From: Mageeibacillus indolicus UPII9-5
GTDB taxonomy: Bacteria > Bacillota > Clostridia > Saccharofermentanales > Fastidiosipilaceae
Reading direction: 5' to 3'
Length of the DNA: 64,000 nucleotides
Assembly (NCBI RefSeq): GCF_000025225.2
Contig: NC_013895.2
Span: 868,001 to 932,000, forward strand
This document shows positions 2,559-6,439 of this stretch, piece by piece. Every line of letters starts with the position of its first letter. The stretch's first letter is position 1. Position numbers and translations under genes: made by a program. The notes beneath the pieces are model-generated. The model did no database searches. It was given only the letters and a program-made list of their open reading frames with translations, and was not told the DNA's origin.

Positions 2559-4811
2559 ATGAATAACAAAGCTTGGGAAGGTTTCAAATCGGGTAATTGG
2601 TCCAAAACAATCGATGTACGCGATTTTATTCAAAAAAATTACACTCCTTATGAGGGAGATGAAAGTTTCTTAGTTGCTCCTACCGCTGACACGACATCTC
2701 TTTGGAATCAAGTAAGCGATATGATTCAAGAAGAGATCCGTACGCATATGATCAAAGTTGATTTAGACCGTTTCAGCGGAATCAATAACTTTGCACCAGG
2801 TTATATTGATCGTGACAAAGAATTGATCGTAGGTTTACAAACCGATGCTCCTATGAAACGTATAATGAATCCTTATGGCGGCTTCCGTATGGTTCGTGAT
2901 GCTTTGAAAGCCTACGATCTTCATATGAAACCGGAATTGGACAGATATTTCAACGAATATCGCAAAACCCATAACCAAGGTGTATTCGACGCATATACGC
3001 AAGATATGCGTAACGCCCGCACTGTCGGTTTACTTACCGGTTTACCCGATGCCTACGGCAGAGGCCGTATTATAGGTGATTATCGTCGTGTTGCCTTGTA
3101 CGGTATTGATTACCTTAAAGCTGAACGTCAAAAGGATCTGCAGAACCTTGTAGGTGACGCAACCGAAGAGATGATCCGCTCACGCGAAGAACTTTCCGAG
3201 CAAATTAGGGCTTTTGATGCTATAAAAGAGATGGCGGCAAGCTATGGTTTCGATATCGGACGTCCGGCCGAAACTGCACAGGAAGCCATTCAATGGCTGT
3301 ATTTCGGCTACTTAGCCGCAGTAAAAGAAAACAACGGTGCTGCGATGTCCCTCGGCCGCAATACAAGCTTTATTGACTGTTACATCCAACGCGACTTGCA
3401 AAGAGGGCTTATCGATGAGTCTTACGCTCAAGCTTTGGTCGATCAGTTCATCATTAAGCTTCGTCTTGTTCGTCACCTGCGTACGCCTGAGTATGACGAG
3501 TTGTTTGCTGGTGATCCGACTTGGGTAACCGAATCAATCGGTGGTATGGGCGAAGACGGGCGCACTTTGGTTACTAAAACAGCTTTCCGTTTCTTGCACA
3601 GCCTGATTAACATTAACACTTCACCGGAGCCCAATATGACTGTTCTTTGGTCCGAGTCATTGCCGACCCCGTTCAAAGATTTCTGCTCGGCTATGAGTAT
3701 TAAAACCGGTGCCGTTCAATATGAAAATGATGACGTGATGCGCCCAATTTACGGTGACGACTATGCGATCGCCTGCTGCGTATCGGCCATGACTGTAGGT
3801 AAGCAAATGCAATTCTTCGGAGCTCGCGCTAACTTGGCTAAATCTTTGCTATATGCCATCAATGGCGGTGTAGACGAAGTTAAAGGCGATAAGAAGACTG
3901 GTGCGCCTTTGACTGTTATTGCCGGCATACCTAAGATGGATGACGAAATCCTTGACTTTGATAAAGTTTGGGCTAATTACAAATTGGTCATGGATAAACT
4001 GGCACGCCTTTATGTAAATACTATGAACACAATTCATTACATGCACGATAAGTATGCATATGAAGCGGGGCAAATGGCTTTGCACGACGCCCACATCCAT
4101 CGTTTCATGGCTTTCGGAATTGCCGGTTTGTCAATTGCTGCCGACTCACTTTCCGCAATCAAATATGCCAAAGTTAAGCCTATTCGCAATGAGAACGGTT
4201 TAGCGGTCGATTTTGAAACTATCGGCGACTTCCCGAAATACGGTAATGATGATGACAGAGTTGACTCAATAGCGGTTGAAATTACCAAATACTTCTCTCA
4301 AGCTTTGAAACGCACACCTACTTATCGTAATGCCGAGCACACGTTGTCGTTACTGACAATTACTTCAAACGTTGTTTACGGCAAGAAAACCGGTACAACG
4401 CCTGACGGACGCAAACGCGGTGAACCGTTCGCTCCTGGTGCCAATCCGATGCACGGCCGCGACAGTTCTGGCGCCTTAGCCTCATTGAATTCCGTAGCTA
4501 AAATTCCTTACAATTGTGTATGCCAAGACGGCGTGTCCAATACTTTCTCTATAGTTCCAGACAGCCTCGGCAAGAACATGGATGAACGTGTAGACAACCT
4601 TACCGGAATAATGGATGGCTACTTCAAACAAAATGCCTTCCACCTCAATGTAAACGTTATGGATCGGGCTTTACTGGAAGATGCCATGAAAAATCCGGAA
4701 AAATATCCGAATCTGACTATTCGTGTTTCCGGTTACGCAGTACGTTTCACGCAGTTGGACCGTGAGCATCAGGAAGAAGTTATTCGCCGTACTTTCCACG
4801 ATTCAATTTGA
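2559..4811 (+). CDS. pflB: pyruvate formate-lyase (formate C-acetyltransferase)
   Basis: Oxygen-sensitive glycyl-radical enzyme that converts pyruvate and CoA to acetyl-CoA and formate in anaerobic fermentation. At 750 residues it is full length for PflB. The adjacent catalytic cysteines (Cys406-Cys407 in AIACCVSAM) and the C-terminal glycyl-radical loop RVSGYAVRF with Gly725 are both intact. The ATG at 2559 has an AGAAAGAGG ribosome site. The gene is followed after 116 bases by its activase on the same strand. A Crp/Fnr-type palindrome precedes it, pointing to oxygen- or redox-linked control. Confidence 0.98.
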
Positions 4812-4863
4812 TTTATACGAGGCAAAAATTTATGATATGATGGACACGGGTATCGACTCGTGT

Positions 4864-4897
4864 AAGGTAGAGCTACCCACTTCGGTAGCTCTATCTT
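4864..4897 (+). promoter_or_regulatory. intercistronic stem-loop between pflB and pflA-crp
   Basis: Arms 4864-4877 and 4884-4897 form a 14-pair stem (one G.U) with a six-base loop. It is followed by TTGTCTATT rather than a strong U-run, so it looks like a partial terminator or mRNA-stabilising hairpin that would set the pflB-to-activase ratio. A weaker ACACG/CGTGT hairpin lies just upstream. Confidence 0.6.
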
Positions 4898-4927
4898 GTC
4901 TATTAGAGAAAGGGATTTTAATCTTAA

Positions 4928-6439
4928 ATGGCAGAACCTGTAAAAGGAAGGATACATTCAATTGAGTCAATGGGGTTAGTTGATGGACCGGGAGTTCGTA
5001 CCATCTTTTTCCTGCAGGGCTGCCCTTTGCGTTGCAGTTTTTGCCATAATCCTGACACTCAAGCTACAACCGGCGGAACGCTTATGACCCCAGAAGAAGT
5101 TCTAGCTAAAGCCAAACGTTACCGACCATATCATCGAGAAGACGGTGGCGTAACTTTTTCCGGCGGCGAGCCTTTACTGCAAGGCGAATTTTTGGCGGCA
5201 ACTCTTAAACTTTTACATGACAATGGATTTAACACTTGCCTTGACACCTCTGGTTACGGCGATATAAGGTATTACGACAAAATTTTCCCTTATGTAGACA
5301 CGATTTTGCTGGATGTTAAGGCATTTAATCCGACCGCATTTAGAAAAATCGCCAAGGTTGATATGCAAATTTTCAAGAATTTTATTGAAAATTTATGGAC
5401 GTACGGCTTTAAAGGGAATATTTGGTTGCGGCATGTTATGCTCCCAGGCTACACCGATAATGAGGCATCCATGATACAATTGATAAGGGTGATCGAGCCG
5501 ATTGCTAATTTTATCGAGCGAATCGAAATTTTGCCTTACCATACAATGGGAGTAGATAAATATAAGGCTTTAGGAAGAAAATATGAGTTGGAAGGCTTAC
5601 CGCCTATGGACAAAGCAGTAGCTAAAAAATATCAAATATTAGCCAATAAAATATTTGCTTTGTACATACATAGCTCACGTTACAACAGAAAGGTAGAGTC
5701 GCGTATGTCAACCGAAAATAATATTAGATGTGAATTATTACCGCCTGAACAAATAACGGCCCTAGAAAATGAATTTAAAGAAATTCCATTAATTCATGAT
5801 ATTATATCCGCGTCTTCTGAAACGATGTGGACACATTTTAAATTTTTCCGCGTTAATAAAGGGGATTTTGTATTTCGTACCGGCGACTCTGCGAATTACA
5901 TGTATATAATCTGTCGAGGCCATGTAAAAATTTTCCATAACACGGCTGACGGCAGAGAGCAGATCCTTTATATATATAATAAGGGTGATTTTATCGGCGG
6001 GCTGAATGTACTTGGAGGCAAAGATTATTTGTATATGGGACAGGCTTTGGAGGACAGCATTATTGCAGCTTTCCCCAAGGCAGATTTTGATCGTTATGTC
6101 GCCGGCAGTCCAGCCATATTACAAAGAATACTGCTAAAAAGCTTTGATCGTATACGCTGGGCGGAAGACTTGATCAATCGGCTTACCACCAGCAATGCTA
6201 CTATGAAAGCTGCCGCCTTGCTGTTGCGACTCAAAGACAATTTCGGTGTCCCGAGTAAGGACGGCATCAGGCTCGATTTGACGATTAATCGCGAGGAAAT
6301 GGGAAATTATTCTGGTTTGACGCGGGAGACTATTACCAGAAAATTGGGTGAGTTTAAAGATATGGGATATATTGATTTTATCGGAAATAAAGTAATCATT
6401 ATCAAAAACTTAGAAGCTTTGGAAGATTTTTGCTTTTGA
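4928..6439 (+). CDS. pflA: pyruvate formate-lyase activase fused to a Crp/Fnr-family regulator
   Basis: One continuous 503-residue frame holds two normally separate proteins. Residues 1 to about 250 are a complete PFL-activating enzyme: the radical SAM cluster CPLRCSFC (Cys32, Cys36, Cys39), the GGEP motif and YHTMGVDKY near the end. It would install the glycyl radical on PflB. Residues from about 260 are a complete Crp/Fnr regulator: a cyclic-nucleotide-binding-type beta-roll, a dimerisation helix and a winged helix-turn-helix with SGLTRETITRKLG at 462-474. Arg466, Glu467 and Arg471 match the DNA-reading residues of Crp. The four Cys of a classical Fnr cluster are absent and the Crp cAMP-binding Arg-Ser/Thr pair is not evident, so the signal is unknown. 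An internal ATG at 5705 (residue 260), with AGAAAGG 11 bases upstream, could yield the regulator alone. A lost stop codon between two adjacent genes, or a sequencing error, are the alternatives. Confidence 0.9.
   Translation: MAEPVKGRIHSIESMGLVDGPGVRTIFFLQGCPLRCSFCHNPDTQATTGGTLMTPEEVLAKAKRYRPYHREDGGVTFSGGEPLLQGEFLAATLKLLHDNGFNTCLDTSGYGDIRYYDKIFPYVDTILLDVKAFNPTAFRKIAKVDMQIFKNFIENLWTYGFKGNIWLRHVMLPGYTDNEASMIQLIRVIEPIANFIERIEILPYHTMGVDKYKALGRKYELEGLPPMDKAVAKKYQILANKIFALYIHSSRYNRKVESRMSTENNIRCELLPPEQITALENEFKEIPLIHDIISASSETMWTHFKFFRVNKGDFVFRTGDSANYMYIICRGHVKIFHNTADGREQILYIYNKGDFIGGLNVLGGKDYLYMGQALEDSIIAAFPKADFDRYVAGSPAILQRILLKSFDRIRWAEDLINRLTTSNATMKAAALLLRLKDNFGVPSKDGIRLDLTINREEMGNYSGLTRETITRKLGEFKDMGYIDFIGNKVIIIKNLEALEDFCF

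Follow-up and report, generated by a model that had tools for sequence, protein, structure and literature searches.

Pyruvate formate-lyase activase fused in frame to a CRP-type regulator in Mageeibacillus indolicus and other bacteria, with a predicted operator at the pfl operon

Pyruvate formate-lyase (PFL) is central to anaerobic fermentation. In E. coli, PFL transcription and its radical activation are carried out by separate proteins. Elsewhere, catalytic and DNA-binding roles in the same pathway can be combined in one polypeptide, as in the trigger enzymes PutA, BirA and NadR. The protein described here likewise joins an enzyme to the regulator of its own pathway; it differs from these three in uniting a radical SAM activase, which modifies PFL post-translationally, with a complete Crp/Fnr protein, the coupling between them being putative. 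Its whole N-terminal half resembles E. coli PflA (PDB 3c8f/3cb8; TIGR02493), which has the radical SAM motif and lies beside pflB, whereas the solved PflA chain is only 245 residues long and the fusion carries an added regulator. The C-terminal half resembles E. coli CRP at class II promoters in its fold, in R180/E181/R185, in its TGTGA-N6-TCACA type of site and in the -41.5 geometry. Unlike in CRP, the cAMP residues are replaced, an enzyme is attached, and the operator-plus-promoter pattern occurs about once per genome. FNR is similar to the regulator half in overall sequence, but its cluster cysteines are not conserved there, and the recognition residue and operator are of the CRP type. In the open literature, as represented by titles and the beginnings of abstracts and with subscription journals mostly outside its scope, we recognised no description of an activase-regulator fusion. 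This is a conserved, presumably bifunctional protein that has apparently gone undescribed.

The window analysed here is a 64-kb stretch (64,000 nucleotides) of the M. indolicus UPII9-5 genome, which consists of one contig of 1,809,746 bases. Positions are those of the window, and the features discussed below are as follows.

2457-2472, no strand assigned: operator TGTGATTCCTGTCACT upstream of pflB, with a perfect GTGA-N6-TCAC core; presumed binding site of the regulator half.
2494-2499, + strand: predicted -10 hexamer TAAAGT, 29.5 nt from the operator centre, which would place the start site at about 2506 and the operator at -41.5.
2559-4811, + strand: pflB, pyruvate formate-lyase, 750 aa, partner of the activase half; an open reading frame named from sequence and context.
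4863-4898, + strand: stem-loop with a 15-bp stem, a possible processing site or partial terminator.
4928-6439, + strand: pflA-crp fusion gene, 503 aa plus stop, identified from the open reading frame, domain matches and the same frame in 24 other genomes.
4949-5632, + strand: activase (PflA) half, residues 8-235, with C32-x3-C36-x2-C39; TIGR02493, nearest solved chain E. coli PflA.
5633-5794, + strand: inter-domain linker, residues 236-289; 52-58 residues in 18/22 main-clade fused loci, dN/dS 0.07-0.31.
5705-5707, + strand: in-frame ATG, a possible internal start for a free regulator, with AGAAAGG about 11 nt upstream.
5849-6427, + strand: Crp/Fnr-type regulator half, residues 308-500, with cNMP_binding and HTH_Crp_2; recognition helix R-E-T-I-T-R.

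The open reading frame list and the translation both give a single uninterrupted frame of 503 codons and a stop. Over residues 8-235 the protein matches TIGR02493 (PFLA) with 253.9 bits, above the curated cutoff of 231.75, and Pfam-type domains are found at residues 28-185 (Radical_SAM), 308-391 (cNMP_binding) and 429-500 (HTH_Crp_2). C32, C36 and C39 are invariant across a 14-row alignment; the CX3CX2C motif and the position of pflB directly upstream are those of a PFL activase, and the best solved match of this half is E. coli PflA (3c8f, E 6.7e-48). Membership of the regulator half in the Crp/Fnr superfamily follows from PF00027 (70.6 bits) and PF13545 (57.9 bits), both above cutoff, and from Foldseek matches to CRPs; among solved chains 9qlt, an "FNR type regulator", matches it best in sequence. 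Of the 73 solved chains matched, 60 were listed, and none of these spans both halves. A structure model (mean pLDDT 81.1, pTM 0.52), built from 14 rows of which only five, including the window, cover the regulator half, has both halves folded, and Foldseek with this model gives PflA and CRP matches that are each limited to one half. The other Crp-like proteins of the window's genome are distant, at 22-24% identity. The initial annotation had read the gene as a complete radical SAM PflA followed in one frame by a complete Crp/Fnr regulator, and the domain matches agree with this; the in-frame continuation stands, but the claim that there is no linker was imprecise, since about 54 residues (236-289) intervene. 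We predict that the 503-aa protein is a working activase that forms the glycyl radical on PflB.

Whole-genome searches, checked at the DNA level, found the same uninterrupted fusion in 24 other genomes, giving 25 different genomes from five families including the window's own. By search, fused genomes number 11 of 188 in the order and 9 of 130 in another family, overlaps included. In the class and phylum samples there are at least 3 of 391 and at least 6 of 398, again with overlaps; these are lower bounds, because at most three candidates per genome were scored at E 1e-60. Several hosts have near-complete assemblies (G640 in one contig, G609 in two, G650 in three). For G045 and G652, whose fused gene is broken by a contig boundary, the check was confined to the segment spanning the junction. 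The gene for PFL lies upstream on the fetched piece in 22 of the 25 genomes; the contig is cut in G045 and G652, and pflB is elsewhere in G640. At ten measured loci from fused genomes, the pflB upstream of the fusion is 69-76% identical. The activase motif and the HTH are intact in all aligned fused rows that reach them.

Within the operon, the spacer that follows pflB and precedes the fused gene (4812-4927) has a folding energy of -38.5 kcal/mol (z -5.64), and all four related loci that were folded form hairpins too. We suggest that the stem-loop may hold the level of the activase-regulator below that of PflB.

A first scan for CRP- and FNR-type sites found a CRP-type palindrome in nearly every pflB locus. 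FNR-type sites (TTGAT-N4-ATCAA) gave no consistent match upstream of pflB, many of the weak ones being the CRP-type palindrome itself, and were set aside. The perfect GTGA-N6-TCAC core is present at 41 of 42 tested pflB loci, rows not being corrected for kinship. The first set comprised 36 regions upstream of pflB, 35 with the regulator fused or adjacent and one (L091) with an unlinked regulator: the core occurs in 35, against 0.083 expected from shuffles, and the core with A/T at both ends in 30, against 0.035. At six further loci (L140, L143, L144, L154, L155 and L176) the operator is present in all six, as is a -10 hexamer at +29.5. L095, where the pflB start is cut off, was left out, and for L093, L133 and L134, where the piece lacks pflB, L094, L207 and L206 served to test the same genomes. 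Regions from fused genomes have the core in 22 of 23 cases. The sole miss among the 42 is G651, with no operator in the 260 nt before the contig end. By comparison, where no regulator adjoins on the same strand, the core is missing from 10 of 13 regions, some of which are near-duplicates; eight of the genomes may have a regulator elsewhere. The core does occur in three: L037, on a contig that stops shortly after pflA, and L156 and L170, from genomes in which the regulator is unlinked. G001 and G011, which have a related unfused regulator, show no perfect operator at pflB, and this speaks against a strict rule.

The promoter is held in register with the operator. In 31 of 38 aligned regions the start of a TATAAT-like hexamer lies exactly 29.5 nt from the operator centre, against a mean of 2.3 over 69 offsets and a mean of 2.6 (maximum 7) in shuffles; of the seven that fail, four, all from group g16, have the hexamer one base nearer. 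With the usual start site, the fixed -10 would place the operator at -41.5, overlapping the -35 region, which is the class II position for CRP (PMC2859248); this class assignment is made from predicted -10 hexamers rather than mapped start sites. A consensus scan of the + strand between operator and pflB found no sigma-70 promoter that includes a -35, which fits an activator taking the place of that element. Taken across genomes, these comparisons argue strongly that the pfl operon itself is a target of the regulator. Operons with separate activase and regulator genes have the same operator, so this regulation does not need the fusion. The proposal in the initial annotation that PflB activation is joined with transcription control finds backing in a real fusion and in the comparison of operators and -10 hexamers.

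The composite of operator and -10 occurs once in the 1.81-Mb genome of the window, and the control pattern not at all. It is found in 15 of 17 fused genomes (reversed control 0/17), once in each except for an overlapping pair in G631. Its position is at pflB in 11 genomes and elsewhere, not at pflB, in four (G044, G049, G640 and G685); it is absent from two. G640 is of particular use: here the fused gene stands alone, with pflB about 102 kb away, and both genes have the operator with a -10 (TAGAAT or TATAAT) at +29.5. This natural separation, with the same promoter at both genes, speaks for activation of both pflB and its own gene by the fused protein. Within the 64-kb window, sites with one mismatch are not commoner than chance (6 against 5.0 expected), and the case for the operator therefore comes from the comparison between genomes.

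A wider regulon is not claimed: WGTGA-N6-TCACW is found at five places in the window's genome, against three for the reversed control. One of the five is at pflB, another falls within a coding gene (window 23861), and the remainder are near rnfC, an MgtC-like gene and a lyase/panE-like pair, all named by eye. The palindrome near the rnfC-like gene (L184 3569-3584) is about 225-240 bp upstream of it and by eye has no -10 at +29.5. In other genomes, G685 (L197) has its composite site between a second Crp/Fnr-like gene (a 256-codon frame) and a hemerythrin-like gene, also named by eye, and G044 (L187) and G049 (L188), both of group g16, have a second composite site downstream of an rsmG-like gene.

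The residues of the regulator half were compared with those of E. coli CRP and FNR in 25 fused and 41 unfused regulators. The DNA-contact residues R180 and R185 of CRP are kept in all of them (25/25 and 41/41), and E181 in 20 of the 25 fused proteins, with D in four and Q in one. At the cAMP contacts of CRP, which we take to be E72, R82, S83, T127 and S128, the window has G, L, Y, A and E, which is not the pattern of a cAMP-dependent CRP. All 25 fused proteins have E72 replaced by G, S83 by Y, T127 by A and S128 by E, and 21 have R82 replaced. The unfused regulators share most of these changes: E72 is replaced in 39/41, S83 is Y in 39/41 and S128 is E in 41/41, T127 being A in only 20/41. Presumably the FNR cluster is held by Cys 20, 23, 29 and 122. 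No Cys is found at these positions in the window, and Cys at 122 is present in only 4 of the 25 fused proteins, most fused rows being cut before the region of the first three (20, 23, 29); in the full alignment, no Cys of the linker is conserved. Both earlier expectations, that the regulator half lacks the Fnr cysteines and lacks a cAMP pocket, are borne out by the residues, which indicate that the effector is not cAMP and that an Fnr-type cluster is absent. Since most of the pocket changes are common to unfused regulators, it is simplest to suppose that the signal is sensed by the regulator half itself.

Our preferred explanation, to which we give a probability of about 0.7, is that one gene makes a single protein which would be both a PFL activase and a CRP-type class II autoactivator of the pfl operon, sensing through its own altered pocket. 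The N-terminal half would place the glycyl radical on PflB, while the C-terminal half, as a dimeric activator, would bind WGTGA-N6-TCACW at -41.5 of the pflB promoter and so activate transcription of pflB and of its own gene, a class II positive autoregulation. The signal would most likely be read through the altered pocket, whose changes are mostly common to fused and unfused members, and the fusion would fix the dose of activase to the dose of regulator. The fusion, its conservation, the intact motifs of both halves, the operator and the fixed promoter register are directly visible in the DNA; the enzymatic activity, DNA binding, direction of regulation and signal of the fused protein we infer.

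An alternative that we rate only a little below an even chance is that the fusion merely ties together two operon products for co-expression, with halves that work independently. Adjacent separate genes are indeed common, occurring in G013, G019, G020, G280, Helcococcus and others. In four records of Anaerococcus, which like Helcococcus belongs to the family with 9 fused genomes of 130, the two adjacent genes share a frame and are separated by one stop codon, a single codon from fusion. In G001, G653 and G655 the activase and regulator genes lie apart. Fusion and fission also recur on the trees: four changes between the fused and separate states are needed on the activase tree (55 rows) and three on the regulator tree (66 rows), and well-supported branches force at least two and three, respectively, so that gain or loss of the fusion took place more than once. 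The trees come from quick searches, with branch support limited to SH-aLRT values, and the activase tree is without the short fragment L093. Against independent halves, three or four changes are few, so the fused state has long been kept once made, and the linker is selected as protein. Its dN/dS is 0.07-0.31 in 8 of 11 close pairs, which share genomes, dS being saturated in the remaining three, and the sole length change among the pairs is in one pair, by in-frame indels summing to three codons. These values point to purifying selection on the linker, that is, selection as protein.

Two further observations concern the distribution of the regulator. G047 has an activase with a C-terminal tail of about 110 aa that gives no regulator match (L091 3008-4105), and a standalone regulator elsewhere (L092); the tail is perhaps a decayed or replaced fusion. 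Six fused genomes of group g16 (L159-L164) have a second, standalone regulator, which is nearer to the window's regulator half (52-55% identity) than their own fused one is (43-46%).

We consider it rather unlikely that translation from the ATG at 5705 supplies most of the window's regulator as a separate protein, in which case the regulator of the long product would matter little. The AGAAAGG ahead of this ATG favours such a start, and G025 and G026 have an internal ATG with a strong AAGGAGGT. At the regulator boundary, 7 of 25 fused loci (G025, G026, G009, G010, G442, G609 and G629) have a start codon accompanied by an SD-like core of at least 5 nt; in the same scan the window's core is shorter, AAGG within AGAAAGG. 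The other 18 have no such start codon, and most members therefore seem to make, and to rely on, only the long form. In addition, there is no stop between the halves in the window, so full-length activase must carry the regulator. Internal starts are plausible in some members, the window included, and free regulator could then do the regulating; judged from its sequence, the window may produce some free regulator besides the long form.

It is doubtful, and to us less probable still, that the activase half is the sensor, as the initial annotation suggested, such that SAM loading, the 4Fe-4S state or docking on PflB alters the regulator half and the cell measures activase occupancy to adjust pfl transcription. 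The fusion is kept across families, and 18 of 22 main-clade loci hold the linker to 52-58 residues (54 in the window), the exceptions being G009, G010, G025 and G026 with 65-79; in a separate clade (G629, G640 and G641) it is 37-38 residues long. In the model a helix (229-262) is predicted to cross the junction, and the regulator has neither the cAMP residues nor the Fnr cysteines. Set against these points, separate-gene operons share the operator and most of the pocket changes, the linker is less conserved than either half in most pairs compared, and pLDDT falls below 50 at 248-266. A transcription factor gated by the state of a radical SAM maturase (its cluster, SAM, or docking on unactivated PflB) and exerting class II activation on the operon that encodes enzyme and activase would be a long shot; if true, the cell would gauge how much glycyl radical enzyme awaits activation.

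Finally, many relatives have two separate genes, but an assembly or sequencing artefact, or a recent loss of a stop codon without function, is contradicted by conservation: the same fused frame in 24 other genomes excludes in practice an error hiding a stop or frameshift, close relatives show both fused and separate states rather than two separate genes throughout, and the smallest well-supported set that holds the window is fused in 21 of 27 members on the activase tree and 18 of 19 on the regulator tree.

The fusion puts PFL activation and transcription control on one polypeptide, and the conserved promoter would place the operon under the control of its own product. It would provide a compact, testable model of how anaerobes, including some that live in the human body, autoregulate their fermentation, and it offers a way to ask if a radical SAM activase can be a sensor.
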